From positions 1 through 51,467 of IMG/VR virus record IMGVR_UViG_3300028392_000087: DNA of 51,467 nt; one strand, given 5' to 3'. Numbering within the stretch: the stretch's first letter is position 1; every line of letters begins with the position of its first letter. This document shows positions 7,251-25,578 of this stretch, in pieces. The translations under genes were made by a program, and so were the position numbers. Source of the DNA: a virus. The notes below the pieces were generated by a model. The model saw only the letters and a list, made by a program, of their open reading frames with translations, had not been told where the DNA came from and did no database searches.

Positions 7251-8315
7251 TTATTTGTTTAAGAAAAAACTTTTATCTATTACTGAATCATAATCTTCTA
7301 TCTCCATATCTCTTTGCTTTTTAAGTTCTTTAAACATACCAATTTGACCTAGAAAACCTAGACCAATACGTACATCATCTTCACCATAGCTATTCTTAAT
7401 CAATCTAAGGCTTCTAAAATACTTAGCACCATAATGATCTGTAAGTTTTGTAAGGTCATATCCACTAGGATCTAACACTTTATATCTTATAGGATCAAAC
7501 AGTGATAGTACAATATCAGCATCATTTTGTGTAGATGAGCTATCAGCAAAATCTTCTAGCTGTGGTTCAACATCTCCATTCTTCTTTCTAATAGGATTAC
7601 TAATGTCTCTATTAAACTGACTCACCACTACAGGACTATATCCATAGAAATCTCTAGCATACCTAAGCTCATCACTCATCTTGTCAATAGCTGCTTTCTT
7701 AGTGGGCTGTGCTGTTGTAGTCTTTAATAGGCCAATATGATCTATAACAACAATAGTTATTTCATTCTCATTATTGGGAATATAAACCTTATTGTATTTA
7801 TCTAACTGTTCTATCCTACCATTCTCTAAAGCATGGTCTTTCAACTCTTTAGCAACTCCCACTGGGTTCTCTGGTCCACTGATAATTGTAACAACCTCTT
7901 TCATTTGTGCAGCATAATCTTCATACATTAGAAACAAATCATGTTCATCTTTGGTCATTTTCTCAGTCCAACCTAATAATTTATTAACAGGAATGATTAT
8001 TCCCTCATCTATGAAGATTTTTCTAGAGATCCATTTAGCTAATTTATATGTTCCACTTCTCTCCATAGAACGATATATAACTCTAAGCTTAATATTTGTT
8101 GTATTAGCTTTGCTTATATACCAATCAAATGGATTAAGAACATATGCATCATCAATGAAGCTAGTCTTACCAGATCCTGTTAATCCACCAACCAGGGTGT
8201 ACATGGACTTCCTGATACCTATATATCTATTAAGCCTGTTAAAGCCCATAGGGATACCATTGTTGCGTCCATCAAGCCCTGCTTGCACTTCATTTTTAAG
8301 GATTTCAAAACTCAT
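7251..8315 (-). CDS. DnaB-like replicative helicase (SF4)
   Basis: The 354-residue protein has the RecA-fold core of DnaB-type helicases: Walker A GGLTGSGKT (43-51), a Walker B strand ITIVVIDHIGLL in the middle, VVVSQFNRDI (H3/sensor-like) and a downstream DADIVLSLFDP strand. The N-terminal DnaB domain is absent, so it is a core-only helicase, as in several phages. It would unwind the fork for the family B polymerase and the primase. It overlaps the next small gene by four bases. Confidence 0.9.
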   Translation of the reverse strand: MSFEILKNEVQAGLDGRNNGIPMGFNRLNRYIGIRKSMYTLVGGLTGSGKTSFIDDAYVLNPFDWYISKANTTNIKLRVIYRSMERSGTYKLAKWISRKIFIDEGIIIPVNKLLGWTEKMTKDEHDLFLMYEDYAAQMKEVVTIISGPENPVGVAKELKDHALENGRIEQLDKYNKVYIPNNENEITIVVIDHIGLLKTTTAQPTKKAAIDKMSDELRYARDFYGYSPVVVSQFNRDISNPIRKKNGDVEPQLEDFADSSSTQNDADIVLSLFDPIRYKVLDPSGYDLTKLTDHYGAKYFRSLRLIKNSYGEDDVRIGLGFLGQIGMFKELKKQRDMEIEDYDSVIDKSFFLNK

Positions 8316-8509
8316 AGTTTTTCTATTTCTTGTTTAACTTCTTGCCAATAATCAGATAAGTAATAATCTTTATCAACAGAATTTATATTCAATATCTCAT
8401 CTACTGCTATTAATGCACATTGTTGAGCATTGTGGACATAGAGATAGTGTGTAGTGTCAGGTTTATTAAATTTTTCAAATAATTCTATTGCTTTTAATTT
8501 TGGCTCCAT
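8312..8509 (-). CDS. Small hypothetical protein (65 aa)
   Basis: A 65-residue protein (MEPKLKAIELFEKF...), amphipathic and probably helical, followed by DnaB with an ATGA overlap. Its first 16 bases overlap the end of the HNH endonuclease gene, suggesting that the endonuclease inserted at its 5' edge. Confidence 0.75.
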   Translation of the reverse strand: MEPKLKAIELFEKFNKPDTTHYLYVHNAQQCALIAVDEILNINSVDKDYYLSDYWQEVKQEIEKL

Positions 8510-8997
8510 ATTAATGTTGTTTTATTATTTCTATTACTTCTAAAGTAATTTTTTAATGTTTGATAATTAATACCTAATTCGATTGATGCATCTTTTAAAG
8601 AATTATATATTATTCCTGTTTTTGTATCTAATACTTTTTTGCTAAATCTTTTTTTAACACCATCTATTTGCTTATTAGTAATAGTTTTTAATCCGCTTTT
8701 AAAAGCGTGTTTTATATTTTCACTTCTTGTAGCCCATTCTAAATTAGAAACATTATTATTTGACTTATTCCCATCAATATGATTGACATCTTTTTTATTT
8801 TCAATGTTATCTATAAATGTTTCAGCTACAAGTCTATGTACTTTTATAGTTTTACTTTTATAGTTTCCTGCATATAAACCTACTCTTTGATAACCTTGTT
8901 GGTCATAACTAAACCTTAAAAATTTGTTTGTTTTAGAACTAAATACTAAACCTTCTTCAGTTATAAAATAATTTGGATATTGTTTTATTTCTTTCAT
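8494..8997 (-). CDS. Free-standing HNH homing endonuclease (NUMOD4-HNH-NUMOD1)
   Basis: The 167-residue protein has the three parts of a phage homing endonuclease: an N-terminal NUMOD4-like segment (YPNYFITEEGLVFS), an HNH core (HRLVAETFI, then VNHIDGNKSNN and NLEWATRSEN), and a C-terminal NUMOD1/IENR-like DNA-reading domain (SLKDASIELGINYQTLKNYF). I choose the ATG at 8997 over the one at 9015 because a TAnnTTTG promoter box lies four bases before it and the intervening codons read through that box. It sits between genes, not inside an intron that I can detect. It would cut an endonuclease-free relative and spread by repair. Confidence 0.85.
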   Translation of the reverse strand: MKEIKQYPNYFITEEGLVFSSKTNKFLRFSYDQQGYQRVGLYAGNYKSKTIKVHRLVAETFIDNIENKKDVNHIDGNKSNNNVSNLEWATRSENIKHAFKSGLKTITNKQIDGVKKRFSKKVLDTKTGIIYNSLKDASIELGINYQTLKNYFRSNRNNKTTLIWSQN

Positions 8998-9001
8998 AAT
9001 A

Positions 9002-9009
9002 CAAATATA
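9002..9009 (-). promoter_or_regulatory. Bacteroidota -7 box abutting HNH start codon
   Basis: The minus strand reads TATATTTG then TATT then ATG. This is an exact TAnnTTTG -7 element placed so that the expected transcription start falls on or next to the start codon. A good -33 TTTG is not visible at 19-21 bp, so this is a partial promoter. The same box and spacing precede the GIY-YIG gene at 14669. Confidence 0.55.
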
Positions 9010-9043
9010 CAACATTTATATTAATAATACATTTCTTTTGGTG

Positions 9044-9670
9044 TCATATATCTGTGCCTCCTTTAACTATTGGTTCTTCTATAACCTTTTTACCCTCTTT
9101 AACTAATTCAATGAATGGTTCAAAGCTTCTTTGATTTAAATAAGTTAGACTATTCTGCATATAAGTAAGTTTGTTAGTCTTCACCTTTACAGAATTCTCT
9201 TTCTTTTGTAACACTTCGTATTCTAATGCTGCTATCATTTCCTTGATAGTATATTCACCTTCAGCTAGAATACTGTTAATCTTCACCTTGCATTCATCTT
9301 TCTTAACTCTCATACTTCTAGTACCTACAAAATTCTGATTCTTGTGTGTGAATGTATCAGTGCCTGGATAGGTTTTCCACCATAACTCAAAATCTTCAAA
9401 ATTTGGTTTCTTCTTAACTAATTTAGTTTCTGCTGTAATTTCCTCATCTAAGAAGCTTAATACAGCTTTACCAATCATAGTGATTTTAAAAGCTTCTGAT
9501 AACAATCCCTTTCTTCTTGCAGATTGACACAACACACTGAGCTTTTCACTCTCACATAATTGTGTTACATCTTCTCCTTCTTCTACAAGCTTTAAGAAAT
9601 ACAATAAATCAAGACTATATCCAGATGATAGTATTTGTTCAAAATGGAAGAGCGTTATGTTTATTTTCAT
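9044..9670 (-). CDS. Putative replication initiation / helicase-loader-like protein
   Basis: A 208-residue protein with an N-terminal helical half and a C-terminal half carrying FELWWKTYPGTD, then RSMRVKKDECK and NKLTYMQNSLTYLNQRSFEP. This arrangement is familiar from phage replisome-organiser or DnaD-like proteins, in which the basic helices bind DNA and load helicase. Its place just upstream of the DnaB-like helicase fits. The assignment is by general pattern, with no catalytic residues to anchor it. It overlaps the upstream 65-aa gene by 32 bases. Confidence 0.7.
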   Translation of the reverse strand: MKINITLFHFEQILSSGYSLDLLYFLKLVEEGEDVTQLCESEKLSVLCQSARRKGLLSEAFKITMIGKAVLSFLDEEITAETKLVKKKPNFEDFELWWKTYPGTDTFTHKNQNFVGTRSMRVKKDECKVKINSILAEGEYTIKEMIAALEYEVLQKKENSVKVKTNKLTYMQNSLTYLNQRSFEPFIELVKEGKKVIEEPIVKGGTDI

Positions 9671-9836
9671 GTTGTTTCTTCAATTTATCTTTGTTAACAA
9701 CTATTATCTGTGCAGGCTGCTTTTTGTTAAATTCTCTACGTATTTTCTCATCTATTAAAGCTTCTTCCTCTAGCAAATATATGAAATCAGTGAGATATTC
9801 TCGCTCAATATCGTAATTAATTATTGAATTATTCAT
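9639..9836 (-). CDS. Hypothetical charged protein (65 aa)
   Basis: I start the gene at the ATG at 9836 (MNNSIINYDIEREYLTDFIY) because the longer frame to 9905 would run through most of the C-terminal half of the upstream 57-aa gene. The protein is strongly charged and ends in a Lys/His-rich stretch. It overlaps both neighbours. Function unknown. Confidence 0.65.
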   Translation of the reverse strand: MNNSIINYDIEREYLTDFIYLLEEEALIDEKIRREFNKKQPAQIIVVNKDKLKKQHENKHNALPF

Positions 9837-10002
9837 GCTCTTTTTCTTTTGTTTTCCAATAATAGTCACAATCTTTCTTTTCATAATCATAAGGAGGATT
9901 TCCAAAATATGATTGCCAATATGGATCAGGTTTCACTGTAAATCTATAACATGTTTCTTTCAATGGACAATCTTGTCCTTTGCAACAACTTATATCTGGC
10001 AT
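9829..10002 (-). CDS. Small cysteine-rich protein (57 aa)
   Basis: A short frame beginning MPDISCCKGQDCPLKETCYR, with a cysteine cluster (C6, C7, C12, C18) that could bind a metal, followed by an aromatic, acidic tail. It overlaps the next gene by eight bases and starts just after the stop of the 34-aa membrane peptide. The cluster resembles small Bacteroidota phage and cellular proteins with a CCxGxxCxxxxxC pattern, but I cannot name the family. Confidence 0.7.
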   Translation of the reverse strand: MPDISCCKGQDCPLKETCYRFTVKPDPYWQSYFGNPPYDYEKKDCDYYWKTKEKEHE

Positions 10003-10007
10003 AAATT

Positions 10008-10112
10008 TTAATTTTTTTCTTCATCATCAACATCATTATATGGCTCATGTGTAATTATATACACAATCCATCCTATGACTGATAGATAGATGGTTAATAA
10101 TATAAATATCAT
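10008..10112 (-). CDS. Single-pass membrane peptide (34 aa)
   Basis: The frame MIFILLTIYLSVIGWIVYII is one hydrophobic helix followed by an acidic tail (VDDEEKN). Its ATG overlaps the TGA of the upstream gene (ATGA), the same coupling used by real neighbours, which is why I accept such a short gene. Function unknown. Confidence 0.6.
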   Translation of the reverse strand: MIFILLTIYLSVIGWIVYIITHEPYNDVDDEEKN

Positions 10113-10618
10113 TTTGTTTCTTCTTTAGGTGTATTATTAGACTTCCAAGCACCCATTGCTCTATCACCACTAGCTATTGCACAATTTCTACAAACTGTGC
10201 TTAACCATCCTGATGTTATCATACCAACATCTTCTCTGGTTCCACAATCTTGACATGTGTTATCAGCTAGATATTCTGCATAATGTATCATACCATCTAC
10301 TTTTCTATCACCATTATTTTCATAGAACCTCAGTCCACCAAACTTTTCTTTCATTTGTGTGCAGGTTACTTGATCAGGATGCTTTTGTATATACCTATGA
10401 GTGGTAACATCATCTAAATTCCATTCAGATCCTATTACATATTCAGGGTTATCAATAGAATGACTGTGTTTATCTATATACTCTTGTATGGCACCACACA
10501 AGTCATCTATTATTGGTAACCAACCATCTGGTACACCATACCAATTACATCTACCTGGATTACCTTCATAATCAGCAAATATCTTTGGATATTTTGCTAT
10601 AACATCTTCTGTTTTCAT
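10109..10618 (-). CDS. Hypothetical zinc-ribbon protein (169 aa)
   Basis: A 169-residue soluble protein. Its C-terminal third has two CxxC pairs (CQDCG near residue 122, and CRNC near residue 143) that look like a zinc ribbon, preceded by a conserved-looking KEKFGGLRFY segment. The pattern is seen in hypothetical phage proteins, with no known function. It lies within the run of small genes between the replication loader and the polymerase. Confidence 0.75.
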   Translation of the reverse strand: MKTEDVIAKYPKIFADYEGNPGRCNWYGVPDGWLPIIDDLCGAIQEYIDKHSHSIDNPEYVIGSEWNLDDVTTHRYIQKHPDQVTCTQMKEKFGGLRFYENNGDRKVDGMIHYAEYLADNTCQDCGTREDVGMITSGWLSTVCRNCAIASGDRAMGAWKSNNTPKEETK

Positions 10619-10619
10619 G

Positions 10620-10964
10620 TTATTTGTTTTTTACTATTTCAATTAATTTTTTAAGACAACCTAGTTCTGCTTCTTCATAAGTAGTACCAATTATCATGAA
10701 ACTATAATCTTTATCTTTTGTAAATTCTCCAATGATTCCAGGTACAGAATTGGTTAATAACCTAACTCCACCAATCCAACCATACTTCTCTCTAAACCAA
10801 CGAAATGCTTGTTGGTAAAGTGGTGCACATAAATGACTTCCATAATTTAGAAACACTATCTTTGGTTTTTCATCAATAACAGCATACCAAGCAATATTGT
10901 AATAATCAAAACCTAACTCTTTAAGTTCTAATGCTTGTTCATAAGGGATAAATTCTTTGTTCAT
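10620..10964 (-). CDS. Hypothetical protein (114 aa)
   Basis: A 114-residue protein beginning MNKEFIPYEQALELKELGFD. That opening is typical of a widespread family of phage and prophage proteins of unknown function that continue with FRWFREKYG, as this one does near residue 72. No catalytic motif is visible. Confidence 0.75.
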   Translation of the reverse strand: MNKEFIPYEQALELKELGFDYYNIAWYAVIDEKPKIVFLNYGSHLCAPLYQQAFRWFREKYGWIGGVRLLTNSVPGIIGEFTKDKDYSFMIIGTTYEEAELGCLKKLIEIVKNK

Positions 10965-10975
10965 ATTGATTTGTG

Positions 10976-11527
10976 TTATTCAGCTGCATAACCAAAAAAG
11001 ATCCACTCACCATCTCTTTCATTAGTGGCTTTCTTATATGTAATTTTAGCCACTGTGTTAGAACCTTTTTCTAAATACTTTTTCATTACAATTGTTGTAC
11101 TAACTTGATTCTTTTCTGTATACTTACGAGCATCTATTAATGCTTCACCTTTTGTAGGCCAACCTCCAATAAAATGATCACCATGTTGTACATCATATCT
11201 AAGTACCCATTTCTTTGTACCTGATTCAACAATGTGTTCCACTTGTGTTTTAATCTTATTGTTATTACCAATAGGTTCTTTAATACATATAGCTGAACAG
11301 TCTCTTTTGTTCATAGTTTCAAATCTATTGCGTATATAAGCATAATCATCATCAAACTTACTTTTCTTATATGCTTCTGTTTCATCTCTAAATCCAGCTG
11401 TAGTGCTGATAGTACCATTATAACCATCTTGATGACCATATTCATCTTCAGCTTCTCTACAAGCTTTTCTATATGCTTCTGATGCTGTTTTACCAAATCC
11501 TCTTGTTTTAAATTGTGTTGCTCCCAT
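10976..11527 (-). CDS. Hypothetical protein (183 aa)
   Basis: A 183-residue protein of unknown function. The N-terminus (FGKTASEAYRKACREAEDEYG) is a charged helix, and the C-terminal half looks like a beta-rich domain (WVLRYDV, TIVMKKYLE, AKITYKKA). Similar proteins occur in other crAss-like and Bacteroidota phages as far as I recall. It shows no metal-binding or nucleotide-binding motif. Confidence 0.75.
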   Translation of the reverse strand: MGATQFKTRGFGKTASEAYRKACREAEDEYGHQDGYNGTISTTAGFRDETEAYKKSKFDDDYAYIRNRFETMNKRDCSAICIKEPIGNNNKIKTQVEHIVESGTKKWVLRYDVQHGDHFIGGWPTKGEALIDARKYTEKNQVSTTIVMKKYLEKGSNTVAKITYKKATNERDGEWIFFGYAAE

Positions 11528-11531
11528 AGTT

Positions 11532-11786
11532 TTAATCTTTAATCCTCAGCCCAAAACCTAAATCAAACCATTGAAAGTTTGCTTCAGCTCTTGTTTTGTT
11601 TATTTTAAATACTTTTTTTATTAATGGAATAGCATATGCTTTAAACGCATCATGTTGTTCCTGTGTCATGGTCCATTTAGTAAACCAGTCTTTGGTCATA
11701 TATGCTTCTTGAGTAGATTTACCAACCATACCTAGTTGATAATCAACTAAATGATCACCTAAATTCTCTCTGTTTATCTTTGCCAT
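11532..11786 (-). CDS. Hypothetical protein (84 aa)
   Basis: An 84-residue basic protein (MAKINRENLGDHLVDYQLGM...) of unknown function. It shares one base with the upstream gene and lies four bases before the next. Confidence 0.75.
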   Translation of the reverse strand: MAKINRENLGDHLVDYQLGMVGKSTQEAYMTKDWFTKWTMTQEQHDAFKAYAIPLIKKVFKINKTRAEANFQWFDLGFGLRIKD

Positions 11787-11974
11787 TAGAATGATAGTAT
11801 TTCAACAACGATATGATTCCACATTAAATACTTATCATTGTCATTAATAAATTGTTTTTGCATCTCATCTGCTAGCTTTACAGCACAATCTTTAGCTGTT
11901 TTTATATCACCAACAATAGCTAAATAGTCTAGTACAAGCTCTGCAGCTTTCTGTCTTTCATTTAATTTTTCCAT
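11786..11974 (-). CDS. Hypothetical helical protein (62 aa)
   Basis: A 62-residue amphipathic protein (KLNERQKAAELVLDYLAIVG). Its start overlaps the stop of the 57-aa gene (TAATG). Function unknown. Confidence 0.7.
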   Translation of the reverse strand: MEKLNERQKAAELVLDYLAIVGDIKTAKDCAVKLADEMQKQFINDNDKYLMWNHIVVEILSF

Positions 11975-12147
11975 TATGTTCTTTTTTCTATGTATTTATC
12001 AAATTTTTCTATATCAAATTTATTATCAAACTTTTCAAACAATATTCTATAAGCCCAATAATAGTCTGAACGTTGGTATTCTATCCCTCTTTCTATGCAG
12101 CTGTCTATTATTATATCAGCTGCAAATTTAAATTGTGATTTCCCCAT
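11974..12147 (-). CDS. Small hypothetical protein (57 aa)
   Basis: The intact frame beginning MGKSQFKFAADIIIDSCIER fills the gap between 11974 and 12151 and shares a TAATG junction with the next gene. It is basic, aromatic and probably helical. Function unknown. Confidence 0.65.
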   Translation of the reverse strand: MGKSQFKFAADIIIDSCIERGIEYQRSDYYWAYRILFEKFDNKFDIEKFDKYIEKRT

Positions 12148-12150
12148 AGG

Positions 12151-12348
12151 TTATTTGTTTTGGTTATAGGTTTGGTTTTCTATTTTTGGCTCACTTCTAA
12201 ACATATGTTCTGACAATTTATTTAATTCCTCAATAACTTCATCAGGTGTTTTATTTGTTCTACATTCAGTAGTAATAATTGCTAACGCTGCCATTAATAA
12301 TCTACCCTCATTAATTGAGTAATTAATTTCATTTAGGTCTTGTATCAT
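12151..12348 (-). CDS. Small hypothetical protein (65 aa)
   Basis: A 65-residue acidic helical protein (MIQDLNEINYSINEGRLLMA). It overlaps the upstream gene by four bases. Function unknown. Confidence 0.7.
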   Translation of the reverse strand: MIQDLNEINYSINEGRLLMAALAIITTECRTNKTPDEVIEELNKLSEHMFRSEPKIENQTYNQNK

Positions 12349-12635
12349 AAGTCTTTTTTATAATTAAAATCTACTGTATATACTTTTACAGATTGTGGTT
12401 CAGGGGTTTCATAATATATAGTGCCTTCAAACTCTGAGGGATATTTACTATTAAATGGTACATATTTAATTCTTACAGCTGAATGCTTATGTTTCTCATT
12501 AGCACCCATATAATCATCTACTATTTCTAGTAGACCTTCCCAAGTATTAGATGCTCCAATAGGTAATGATTCTTCTGCATCACAAGCATAATATATAAAA
12601 CTTAGATTTAGTGCATTTTGTTCTGCTGTTTTCAT
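12345..12635 (-). CDS. Hypothetical protein (96 aa)
   Basis: A 96-residue soluble protein (MKTAEQNALNLSFIYYACDA...), alpha then beta in pattern. ATGA overlaps occur at both ends. Function unknown. Confidence 0.72.
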   Translation of the reverse strand: MKTAEQNALNLSFIYYACDAEESLPIGASNTWEGLLEIVDDYMGANEKHKHSAVRIKYVPFNSKYPSEFEGTIYYETPEPQSVKVYTVDFNYKKDL

Positions 12636-12817
12636 AAGTTATTTATTTTAGGATGACAAAATACTGTTAACAGTGCAACTGGTAAAAGTGTTCCATTCTC
12701 ATCATCTTCATAAGGTTTTTCAATCTGCTGTCCATTTTTTGTTTTATATATGATTACATAATAAGAGTCATCATAATCTTCAGCACATCTTTGAGAAATA
12801 ATTTGATTTTGATTCAT
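12632..12817 (-). CDS. Small hypothetical protein (61 aa)
   Basis: A 61-residue acidic protein (MNQNQIISQRCAEDYDDSYY) directly downstream of the polymerase gene, with an 11-base gap. Function unknown. Confidence 0.7.
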   Translation of the reverse strand: MNQNQIISQRCAEDYDDSYYVIIYKTKNGQQIEKPYEDDENGTLLPVALLTVFCHPKINNL

Positions 12818-12828
12818 TTTTATAGTTA

Positions 12829-13970
12829 TTAAAATAAGGAAAGTTGGTTCTTGTCAATATTGACTTTTCTTTTCTTACCACCTAATTGTATCTTATCTAT
12901 AATACGTTGAGCTTTCTCTATATAATACTCATAGTTGATATTATCAAGAGGATGGTCTTTTGGTAGGAAATTGCATACATGCATTACCCACTCACCTGCT
13001 TCCACTTGGCTAATATCAACAGCATTAGTTATACATTCAGGATTTTTCACCTTTAATAGCTTCTCTCCTGTATTAGAAACATAATAACGAATAAGCTTAT
13101 TATATATGGTCTTATTCTCTTTGCATCTTAAATCTGTATTAACAAAACTTATAGCATTCTCAAAAGAAGTAGCCATTCTATCATATGGTTTTTGCTGGTC
13201 AACCCACTCTTTTTTAATCCATGAATCACCTTCATATTTTATCCAACCATTATAAAGAAGTTCTTCTTCTGTTAATATGCTTAAAGATTTACCTGATTTG
13301 ACTCCTTCATAATGAAAATCCTTACTAGCTTTCTGTCTTAATGCATAATCATAGATGTTAGTATGATTCCTAATAGTAGACTCAATAGGTATATTATGAA
13401 CATAATATTGTTCGAGAGCCATTGGTACAATCCTGGCAGATTTGTTTTTATGTAATTCAAAATCTGTAAGGAAATCACCTTTCTTTTTGATTTCTCCATC
13501 TGTTTTAATTGCTATATAGTCATTCACTGTGCTGAAGATAATCTTCTGATAATCAGTGCGTTCTAACTCATATTGTGTTAGAGTTTGCCACCACTCATTA
13601 ATCTCAAACATTTTCTCCAGCTTTTCTTTATGGATCTCAATAGTAACACCATCTGTATTTGCTGAAATGACATGTATTCCTTCCAATTCATATGCTTCAA
13701 TTAACATCATTAATGATAGTTCACCTGTAATGGTAGTGAACATGGTTAGTTGTCTGTCATAAATCCAGTTTTGCATATCACTAGACTTACCATACACAGA
13801 GTTTACAGCAAGCTTAAGAGCTCCTACAATACCTTTTATTCTTTTATCTTTTTTAGCTAAAGGTTTGAGTTCTAGTCTCTTGTTAAACATTTGCTTGTAT
13901 CCACTTAAGAATTCTTTTCCTAAATGTCCTGGATAGCGTCCATTGTTAATAATGATAGCAGGATAATATG
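12829..13970 (-). CDS. Family B DNA polymerase, exon 2 (palm, thumb)
   Basis: This exon supplies the C-terminal 380 residues of the replicative polymerase. In its frame the exon opens with YYPAIIINNGRYPGHLG, which completes motif A begun in exon 1; motif B follows as KLAVNSVYGKSS and motif C as ANTDGV (usually YGDTDS, so the first metal-binding Asp is Asn and the second is kept). The first exon base is set at 13970 because that gives an in-frame DVSSYYP junction and an intron ending in G. The protein ends NQLSLF, a textbook beta-clamp-binding pentapeptide (QLSLF). Spliced to exon 1 the product is 708 residues. An internal ATG at 13890 would give a useless fragment. Confidence 0.92.
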
Positions 13971-14009
13971 CTTAACCTATAGCCTTTCAACTATAGCTGG
14001 ACTATATCA

Positions 14010-14669
14010 TCATTCAACTTTTAATTCTTTTTTCCAAACAAACCCATAAACTGAAGGTTTGTGACCTGAACAAACTGCATATATTTGCTGCCATTTATAA
14101 TTAGGATTTTGTTCTGTAATTTCTTTTACAGAATTCCATCTTTTTATAAATTGACCATCTTTAGTATACTGATTAATATAATATTTAATTGTAGCTTCTG
14201 AAACTTTCTTTGCCATTTCTTTAGTAGCCTCTGGATTATCTTTCCAATAAGTATGGCTAGATTTTAGTCTTTCTTTTGGATCAGAAAATCTCTTAATTTG
14301 AGCTTCACTAAGTTTTTTTCTTGTTTCTTGAGAAACAATACATCCTGTTTCAGAATCTTCTCTAAAATTATATCCTTTACTTCTATCAGTACATTTATAA
14401 ATTCTTTGCCAATATAACTCTCGTTCTTTTAATAGGTCAACTGGTAAATATTCTACTACAAAGTATTCAAACGATTCCTTTCCATATTTGTGCCAAGCAT
14501 TTATAAAATGTTCATTTTCATCTTTACTCTTCTTATTGAGAAGGTTAATATGTTGTCTGATTCTTCTATAAATGTCAATAGCTTTTCCAATATAGACTTT
14601 GGAATTTGTTTTATTTCGTATACAATATATACCACTTTTGTTTAAGTGTTCTTTTCTATTCAATTTCAT
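14010..14669 (-). CDS. GIY-YIG homing endonuclease in the polymerase intron
   Basis: The 219-residue protein has GIYCIRNKTNSKVYIGKA (13-30) with the GIY and YIG triads, downstream Arg residues (RRIRQH) and the catalytic-type Glu in KERELYW. These are followed by NUMOD3-like repeats (SQETRKKLSEAQIKRF and KEMAKKVSEATIKYY) and a NUMOD1/IENR1-like end (VWKK). It should cut intronless polymerase genes near the insertion site and spread the intron. It does not overlap the exons, and its own promoter lies just upstream inside the intron, so it need not depend on polymerase transcription. Confidence 0.93.
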   Translation of the reverse strand: MKLNRKEHLNKSGIYCIRNKTNSKVYIGKAIDIYRRIRQHINLLNKKSKDENEHFINAWHKYGKESFEYFVVEYLPVDLLKERELYWQRIYKCTDRSKGYNFREDSETGCIVSQETRKKLSEAQIKRFSDPKERLKSSHTYWKDNPEATKEMAKKVSEATIKYYINQYTKDGQFIKRWNSVKEITEQNPNYKWQQIYAVCSGHKPSVYGFVWKKELKVE

Positions 14670-14673
14670 ACTA

Positions 14674-14704
14674 CAAATATATGTAATTACATGGATAGAA
14701 CCAA
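14674..14704 (-). promoter_or_regulatory. Host-type promoter inside the intron for the endonuclease
   Basis: The minus strand has TTG (14702-14704), 20 bases, then TATATTTG (14674-14681), a match to the Bacteroidota -33/-7 consensus. Four bases (TAGT) separate the box from the ATG, so transcription would begin at or beside the start codon and the message would be leaderless. Confidence 0.65.
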
Positions 14705-14924
14705 GACACTTATATTAATTAATTGTTAAATGTTCCCTGTTTAGTCTCTGAACCTTGATCTATTTCACTATAGACCCTTGGCTGCGGATTGTCCAATATT
14801 AACCTTTTTTACCATACCTGAGTAGTTAGTTCAGCCACTATATGTATTTCTACTATAGCTTGGTAGGTTAATCTCTAAGGAGGTTCCCGTCAATTTAAGG
14901 AATTTTAGTTTCGCCATATTGTTA

Positions 14925-15909
14925 ACGAAACATCCCAATCAATGATTAAATGATCTTCATCAGCCTCAAATATTTCAGGTTTGTTTTCTGTGTGAAGACC
15001 ACCCTTCATAAATGAATATACATTGTTATAAAAGCTAATAGATTCTTTGAAATCATCTTTGGTTCCAAGCTTCATCTTCCTAATTCTAATTAAGAATTGT
15101 TGTAGCTCTTTTGTTTTAAATGATACATAACCTGCTATACATTGTTTAACAGCCACTTCTTTTCTAAAAAATCCTTTCTTTGGTAAATCAGTATATGATA
15201 TTCTCTTCTCTTGACAATAGAACTTCTTAATCATCTCATCACCAATCTTACTATCAGAATAGTTTAAACATGGTATACCAAATTCTTCTTGTATATCTAG
15301 TCTCAATCCTATTTGATCATTACCCTTATATAAAGGATGTTCACAATTACCAACAGTCACCTTATAGAATTCATATGTAGCATAAACATCATTACGACAG
15401 TAGTTTCTAGTTATTTCTATTTCCTCTTCTGTCATATTTGTTTTAGTGTGATGAATAGGCATCTCTTCAATGTTCTCAAGATCCATTTCAAACTCTAATC
15501 TCTTCAAACTAACACGTCTGTTCTTATTATCATAGTGATTCACCTTGAAAAGATCTATTTGCTTGAAACTTAATTGTTCCTCTCTATATTCAGGAAACAC
15601 ATCAAAATTAGCATCATGAATTACATCAGCAGCTTTCTGTGCTATTTTAGCACATATCTCTAAATTAGATAGCTCATACCAATTGTCATTGCTTTTAATA
15701 ATCCATTCAACCACCTGACTATCAAAGCGTAAGCTATTATAACCTACAAAATAATATTCATTATGCAGCTCAATGAACTTAATCATACCATCTAAATCAT
15801 TCTGCCAATTGCTCACAATAAACTCATGATGCTCATTTGTCTGAGGATTATAAATATCAATTAGAAACAATTCTTGCATTGTTTCTATGTCATACACTAA
15901 TATATTCAT
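14925..15909 (-). CDS. Family B DNA polymerase, exon 1 (3'-5' exonuclease)
   Basis: This exon supplies residues 1-328 plus one base of the next codon. It holds the proofreading domain with Exo I YDIET (6-10), Exo II GYNSLRFD (56-63) and Exo III YCRND (170-174), and ends in the first half of motif A, DWDVS (324-328). Without splicing, translation would add only LTIWRN and stop, giving a polymerase-less exonuclease. The enzyme should replicate the phage genome together with the DnaB-like helicase and primase in the same arm. The start at 15909 overlaps the stop of the upstream 40-aa gene (ATGA). Confidence 0.95.
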
Positions 15910-24337: not shown

Positions 24338-24369
24338 TTTGGTTATGTCTTTACTTTTCCCTATCTTTG
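24338..24369 (+). promoter_or_regulatory. Host-type promoter of the GIY-YIG/HTH gene
   Basis: TTTG (24338-24341), 20 bases, then TATCTTTG (24362-24369) match the Bacteroidota -33/-7 consensus exactly. The expected start of transcription is about 24374-24377, roughly ten bases before the ATG at 24387. Confidence 0.8.
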
Positions 24370-24857: not shown

Positions 24858-25224
24858 CTTTACATATTGTCAGCTTATAGGTTTACATAATGTGTCTTAT
24901 TACACCCATTAAGGTATAATATTGTTCCTTATAGCACCCATTATACCTGAGAAGGTATAGTTTGCACCTATAAATTAAACTTTGCTCTCAATTATAATAT
25001 CTTGTTGTACTTAAATTATAATCCCTTGCAGAAAATAAATTTGGTAGTGTGAATTATATTACAGATTTTTGGGGGGGAATAAAAGGGGGGGCTGGTTAAA
25101 GATGTTGCTTATATATATTGTCTAATTAAATAATAGACAGCATAATATAGCAATAAGTCATTTGAATAATAAGAATAGTTATTTGTTGGTCTATAGATTA
25201 TGTATATCTTTGCATTAACTAATT
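24858..25224. other. Right-arm leader region: repeats, G-tracts, operator-like sites
   Basis: No gene is seen. Notable sequences are two CACCCATTA copies (about 24904 and 24936), ATACCT-GAGA-AGGTAT (a small hairpin near 24945-24960), two ATTATAAT copies, G-runs of seven (about 25065-25091), and the inverted repeat TGTCTA / TAGACA (25119-25139). The last lies about 45 bases upstream of the -33 box of the right-arm promoter and is a good operator candidate. Confidence 0.5.
25182..25212 (+). promoter_or_regulatory. Host-type promoter of the right-arm operon
   Basis: TTTG (25182-25185), exactly 19 bases, then TATCTTTG (25205-25212) is a full Bacteroidota consensus promoter. Transcription should begin near 25217-25220, leaving a leader of only a few bases before the ATG at 25225. 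Confidence 0.85.
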
Positions 25225-25578
25225 ATGGAAACTAAAGTTGTTATAGTACAAAAACTTAAAAAATCTGTTGAAGACAGTTATGCTTTAGCAGAGAAGTATT
25301 ATAGTTTGTTGTCTACATTGAATGAGTTGAAGCTTACACATAGGGAGATTCAGCTTATAGCCTTTACAGCAATTAAGGGTAATATAAGCTATGCTAACAT
25401 AAGAGAAGAGTTTTGTTCTAAATACAACACCACTCCTCCAACAATAAATAATATTATATCAAAGCTTAAGCGAATAGGTGTGTTAGTTAAGGATGGAACT
25501 AAGGTGAAGGTTAATCCAAGAATAATCCTTAACTTCGATAAAGATTTAGTGTTAGATATAAAGATAGTTCATGGATAA
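25225..25578 (+). CDS. Winged-helix (MarR-like) DNA-binding protein
   Basis: The 117-residue protein has the HTH pattern LTHREIQLIAFTAIKG followed by a recognition helix region TPPTINNIISKLKRIGVLVK and a wing (DGTKVKVNPRI), as in MarR-type regulators. The first 30 residues are a long helix suited to dimerisation. It is the first gene of the right arm, so it probably regulates its own promoter or the switch to late genes. It overlaps the next gene by eight bases. Confidence 0.72.
   Translation: METKVVIVQKLKKSVEDSYALAEKYYSLLSTLNELKLTHREIQLIAFTAIKGNISYANIREEFCSKYNTTPPTINNIISKLKRIGVLVKDGTKVKVNPRIILNFDKDLVLDIKIVHG

Follow-up and report, generated by a model that had tools for sequence, protein, structure and literature searches.

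Two homing endonuclease genes (HEGs) and the short sequence preceding their start codons are considered here in the IMG/VR virus record IMGVR_UViG_3300028392_000087, an incomplete phage genome of 51,467 nucleotides (nt) which, over its whole length, is referred to as the window. Both HEGs are located in a minus-strand replication operon (Table 1). One of them qualifies as a free-standing HNH homing endonuclease gene by its HNH domain, its specific insertion and the existence of empty alleles: the element interrupts a small conserved gene (MTPKEKAxEL...) behind its fifth codon, leaving a nine-codon remnant upstream, and uninserted alleles of this target gene, which begin ATGACACCAAAAGAAAAAGCA, are common. 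The other encodes a GIY-YIG endonuclease and lies within a putative group I intron of the DNA polymerase gene, the intron boundaries having been inferred by reading the exons. Since the intron R element is found upstream of this gene and the S element right after its stop codon, the gene fills loop L8, and most relatives likewise have the GIY gene flanked by R and S. The window terminase is closest to those of Leptolyngbya phage Lbo-JY46, Cellulophaga phi4:1 and crAss-like phages, and the host of the phage is likely a member of the Bacteroidota.

On the minus strand, the same eight bases, TATATTTG, precede both genes, being followed by TATT and the HNH ATG (8995-8997) in one case, and by TAGT and the GIY-YIG ATG (14667-14669) in the other. 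A first-pass annotation, made from the DNA sequence alone, had reported this box-N4-ATG arrangement before two unrelated nucleases, together with a TTG 20 base pairs (bp) upstream of the intron copy, and both observations are borne out. The 15-mer pattern TATATTTGNNNNATG, picked post hoc after looking at the sequence, has exactly two copies in the window where 0.14 would be expected, and none of 100 shuffles reaches two; among the approximately 72 likely gene starts of the window, only those of the HNH and GIY-YIG genes show the box at a spacing of 4. TAnnTTTG itself is found 86 times in the window versus 79 expected, so that the idea of an over-represented motif was rejected and the unusual aspect of the box is its position. 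The HNH box has an ATG at the -33 position instead of TTG, while the relatives L004 and L006 carry TTTG there. Besides, an in-frame ATG is present at 9015, 18 nt before the HNH start, which would put the box inside the coding sequence; as this ATG lacks conservation in relatives, it was rejected as the start and 8997 is the likely one.

Table 1. Coordinates of the two homing endonuclease genes and associated features in the window
Feature	Position	Strand	Description
Candidate -7 box of HNH gene	9002..9009	-	TATATTTG; 4 nt from ATG; kept in L003-L005
Candidate -7 box of GIY-YIG gene	14674..14681	-	TATATTTG; 4 nt from ATG; TA..TTTG kept, nn variable in relatives
Candidate -33 element	14702..14704	-	TTG, 20 bp upstream of GIY-YIG box; invariant in 11 aligned relatives
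Predicted hairpin, 5' arm	14695..14712	-	In L8; box and AUG of read-through RNA lie within the hairpin
Predicted hairpin, 3' arm	14643..14659	-	Codons 4-9 of GIY-YIG gene
HNH homing endonuclease gene	8494..8997	-	167 amino acids, HNH_3; Pfam PF13392, E 8e-13; PHROG HNH endonuclease
Minigene MTPKEMYY*	9021..9047	-	5' remnant of target gene; conserved ATGACACCAAAAGA in 5 loci
HNH target gene	8312..8509	-	phrog_21441 family; start re-supplied by 3' end of HNH element (MEPKLKA... for MTPKEKA...)
GIY-YIG homing endonuclease gene	14010..14669	-	219 amino acids; loop L8 of intron; Pfam PF01541, E 3e-11
Putative group I intron in DNA polymerase gene	13971..14927	-	Exon 1 ...DVS / exon 2 YYPAIII...
Intron R element	14735..14752	-	TTCAGAGACTAAACAGGG; upstream of the reading frame in most relatives
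Intron S element	13999..14008	-	GATATAGTCC; directly after stop of the reading frame
DNA polymerase exon 2	12829..13970	-	PHROG 1252 DNA polymerase, E 4e-67
DNA polymerase exon 1	14928..15909	-	PHROG 1252 DNA polymerase, E 3e-47

Both copies of the box match TAnnTTTG, the -7 element of Bacteroidota sigma-A promoters, which was mapped as T-12 A-11 T-8 T-7 T-6 G-5 in Flavobacterium johnsoniae (PMC6847099) and at -12 to -5 in F. psychrophilum (PMC9723704). As the mapped box occupies -12 to -5, a spacer of four nucleotides puts +1 on the A of the ATG, and the earlier proposal of a -7 element with a transcript start at the ATG agrees with these mapped positions. Both boxes are likely real promoters, and HNH and GIY-YIG transcripts starting at the start codon are predicted from the mapped box-to-start distance. 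The likeness to the host promoters extends to the TTG that the intron copy has some 20 bp upstream (PMC6847099, PMC9723704, PMC7366714), whereas the abutment on the ATG is shared by few of them: leaderless mRNAs are rare in F. psychrophilum (5.5%; PMC9723704) and 3.7% of the 5' untranslated regions (UTRs) of Bacteroides thetaiotaomicron are shorter than 10 nt (PMC7366714), i.e. about 4-6% of mapped Bacteroidota host mRNAs are leaderless or nearly so. Transposases are among the B. thetaiotaomicron genes with 5' UTRs below 10 nt and are likewise genes of selfish elements, but they are chromosomal transposases rather than phage endonucleases, and no hairpin is reported there (PMC7366714). By sequence, the phage's own operon has the same promoter type as the HEGs: host-type promoters with ordinary leaders occur on the plus strand at 24362-24369 (TTG-N20-TATCTTTG, before 24387) and at 25205-25212 (TTG-N18-TATCTTTG, before the rightward structural operon at 25225). 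With private promoters, both HEGs would be independent of the phage operon, as had been suggested.

The comparison with relatives supports a promoter at the intron gene, just upstream of which, inside the intron, the promoter sequence is placed. Among close GIY relatives the box reads TATATTTG, TACATTTG or TATGTTTG, TA..TTTG remaining constant while nn changes, and there is an invariant TTGG 20 bp upstream; L027 and its kin have the box 12 bp further from the ATG, at an unchanged distance from the TTG. The box lies within 50 nt of the ATG in 8 of 18 intron-GIY clusters, versus 0.9 expected, and six of these have TTG at 18-21. Two named phages illustrate this layout: in the F. psychrophilum phage Fpv1, an intron GIY gene is preceded by TATCTTTG-TTTT-ATG, and frurule, a crAss-like phage of B. 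cellulosilyticus, has TTG-N20-TATATTTG-N16-ATG before a GIY gene located between two dnaB pieces. The box was not found at the free-standing GIY genes of the crAss-like phages looked at, and no HEG was recognised in phage FCL-2 with the models used. Since the box-ATG spacings in 80 GIY loci include 4, 5, 11, 14, 16, 18, 19, 23-25, 28 and 38 nt, leaderlessness is not the conserved trait of the intron GIY family; judged from these alignments, the putative promoter is, with leaderless spacing as just one of the forms it takes. Three of the five loci of the HNH subfamily (L003-L005) retain an intact box, and TTTG stands at N20 in two of the five. These five insertions (L003-L007) split the target gene and re-supply its start in different ways; a DNA-pattern scan for the insertion site gave no new loci.

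Enrichment of the box at HEGs was evaluated with proteins clustered at 60% identity, one value per family, and comparison genes from the same contigs, HEG families having the box 5-8 times as often as these other genes. The layout TTG-N18-21-TAnnTTTG within 45 nt was found in 13.5 of 86 HEG families versus 28.6 of 1202 others (odds ratio (OR) 7.9, p 2e-7), and the box at spacing 3-6 in 8.4 of 86 versus 15.4 of 1202 (OR 8.1, p 6e-5), while a reversed-box control in the same families gave an OR of 1.5 (p 0.39) and no case at spacing 3-6. In HEGs and non-HEG genes alike, the histogram of spacings peaks sharply at exactly 4, which suggests that exact leaderless starts form a genuine class among these phage genes. 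Furthermore, 55 reading frames of 60 amino acids or more, mostly ordinary genes with few endonucleases, were preceded by the full layout in an unbiased scan of viral contigs, so that a HEG-specific start architecture was rejected. The earlier view that leaderless expression is selected in these selfish genes is thus upheld as regards the enrichment of the box and of the leaderless spacing; selection for leaderlessness itself is not supported, in view of the 4-38 nt range in the GIY family and the ordinary genes sharing the layout.

A second feature distinguishes the intron gene. When the region -60 to +30 around the start was folded for 30 intron GIY genes and 150 other genes, the mean folding z was -2.40 in the former versus -0.03 in the latter (p 2e-11), and positions -6 to +6 around the AUG were 36% unpaired versus 54% (p 6e-7). 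No such structure was detected at HNH genes (z -0.33) or at other box-bearing genes (z -0.49; +0.40 at spacing 4); a hairpin at HNH starts was rejected for want of a family signal, the HNH copy of the window having a z of -1.14. Across many lineages whose sequences resemble each other little, the 5' arm of the predicted hairpin contains the box and the AUG is in or beside the 3' arm, as in frurule, where a 14-bp hairpin has the box in one arm and the AUG in the other (z -4.2). For the outer helix in the clade of the window, 95.8% of cells are paired, versus 37-59% when slid, and two pairs show double changes. A hairpin hiding the start is therefore predicted at the family level, where the structural signal is strong, the effect on translation being only proposed; in the clade of the window, a transcript from the box would be devoid of the hairpin 5' arm. 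As a consequence, the same start architecture, formerly ascribed to both nuclease families, holds for the box but not for the AUG-hiding hairpin, which is predicted at the intron gene only: the HNH and GIY-YIG genes share the start box and not the rest of their control.

From these statistics of box conservation, spacing, enrichment and RNA structure, we infer promoter activity, transcript start, translational block and effect on splicing according to a model which we hold to be fairly probable as a whole. Both boxes would be host sigma-A -7 elements, read by the Bacteroidota RNA polymerase to give private leaderless or near-leaderless transcripts for the two HEGs, and the GIY-YIG promoter would be paired with the AUG-hiding hairpin. 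In the polymerase pre-mRNA, the hairpin formed by L8 and the first codons would enclose the GIY-YIG AUG, leading to poor translation and leaving splicing undisturbed, whereas the RNA from the internal promoter would start at the AUG, lack the 5' arm and be translatable. For the HNH gene, a private promoter alone is proposed. Given that the boxes of relatives stand at other distances but mostly still inside the hairpin, selection seems to keep the loss of the 5' arm rather than leaderlessness.

This model resembles the control of I-TevI in the td intron of phage T4, in which RNA structure conceals the ribosome site of early and middle transcripts, the RNA made from a late promoter directly upstream is too short for the hairpin, and td splicing drops when the hairpin is lost (PMC2988022). 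In both cases a GIY-YIG endonuclease (PF01541 in the window, between R and S) is encoded in a group I intron with a promoter inside the intron, intron type and promoter being putative in the window, and structure around the start is present in the read-through RNA but not, as predicted here, in the private transcript. The window gene nevertheless differs in having a promoter of host sigma-A type in place of a T4 late promoter, in lacking a Shine-Dalgarno sequence, so that the AUG itself is enclosed and the transcript is predicted to begin there, and in residing in another intron and gene (DNA polymerase motif A). As for the HNH gene, MobE of phage Aeh1 is likewise an HNH endonuclease embedded in an (essential) gene with its own transcription control (PMC2988022), although in the window the HNH element interrupts its target gene after codon 5 and re-supplies the start codon. 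It is conceivable, and in our estimate somewhat short of probable, that Bacteroidota phages independently reached the I-TevI strategy with a host sigma factor, the box lying inside an AUG-hiding hairpin, the leaderless or short-leader transcript being the sole translatable one and some lineages adding a homing-site-like operator, and that the same arrangement is repeated in introns of polymerase and dnaB genes and in Flavobacterium and Bacteroides phages. The textbook selfish intron whose nuclease stays silent on the pre-mRNA is that of I-TevI; a further version with host promoters, in another phylum and without Shine-Dalgarno sequence, would show that intron endonucleases generally need to conceal their start in read-through RNA. 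The benefit of a start signal pressed against the ATG in such genes would thereby be accounted for, and Bacteroidota would gain simple leaderless expression modules.

Several data weigh against the model of private promoters and an AUG-hiding hairpin. The exact box is not present in 10 of the 18 GIY clusters, is degenerate in two of the five HNH relatives (L006, TATAATTG; L007, TATATTTA) and was found at 0 of 20 HNH genes in Bacteroidota chromosomes, whereby a general rule for Bacteroidota HNH genes was rejected. The contigs of the enrichment test had been fetched through these very HEGs, and the reversed-box control is somewhat raised too within the HNH stratum, making the HNH evidence weaker. 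Regarding the hairpin, the window's own copy is no more stable than shuffles (z -0.46), the double changes in the helix represent few events, codons 1-4 (+1 to +12) are as accessible in read-through RNA as those of other genes (0.49 vs 0.50), and the accessibility gained with the gene's own transcript is only marginal in comparison with other genes (p 0.053). In addition, intron RNA is structured anyway, and the lower z could stem from that.

The boxes could be regarded as chance matches in AT-rich DNA, with both genes translated from read-through operon RNA alone, the more so as TAnnTTTG is at background in the window, N4 was noticed after the fact and the HNH box decays in some relatives. 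However, chance does not readily explain why the GIY clade retains TA..TTTG and TTG-N20 with a variable nn, nor the excess of clusters with a nearby box, the HEG enrichment with its flat reversed control and the spike at spacing 4, and we consider this explanation improbable. For the HNH gene, expression might instead rely on read-through and reinitiation, ribosomes that have translated MTPKEMYY* stopping 23 nt before the HNH ATG and restarting there, with little added by the box. The minigene and its stop are conserved in all five insertions, whereas the box is not intact in all; yet the minigene arises automatically when an element inserts after codon 5, and the L004 box with its TTTG-N20 fits a promoter, so that we rather doubt this route. 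Finally, instead of the host enzyme, an RNA polymerase encoded by the phage could use the box, as is the case in crAss-like phages. The crAss-like and Cellulophaga phages among the terminase relatives and the incompleteness of the window genome are compatible with this, but the box is identical to the host element as mapped, down to the position at -12 to -5 and the TTG at N20, and a search of window proteins, though not a full one, recognised no RNA polymerase gene; we hold this reading to be very improbable.

A further alternative attributes the conservation near the intron promoter mainly to an operator, the endonuclease binding a homing-site copy over its own promoter, via the spacer motif TTGGNTNNTAYCC, and thereby repressing itself. 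T4 intron endonucleases have homing-site operators, and I-TevI autorepresses (PMC2988022), while the operator considered here is putative. In line with it, near-exact copies of the locus's own exon 2 are present in L8, inverted in L367 (14/14), L359 (13/14) and L370 (12/14) and direct in L387 (13/15), which has a different insertion site. On the other hand, the permutation of own versus other exons gives a p of 0.067, the window copy matches poorly and the orientation varies. An operator as the main function hence appears unlikely, and it could add to the promoter-hairpin model instead of replacing it. As a separate observation, L359, L361, L365 and L367 have a distinct hairpin, TTATCCTAA...TTAGGATAA, upstream of the GIY gene, both arms of which match their own exon 2.

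The intron gave no match to Rfam models. Its 5' half (14777-14895) is 83% identical to a sequence between DNA polymerase I fragments in Bacillus phages such as SIOphi, i.e. across phyla, and weaker matches to it occur in Staphylococcus, Vibrio and crAss-like phages. Related GIY introns in L383 and L387 occupy a second site, which resembles a later DNA polymerase motif (NNY/IA) and not motif A. In L372, L374 and L376, the GIY-YIG frame is open only when TGA is read as Trp, with 6 of 6 in-frame TGAs at Trp positions, and these phages probably recode TGA.

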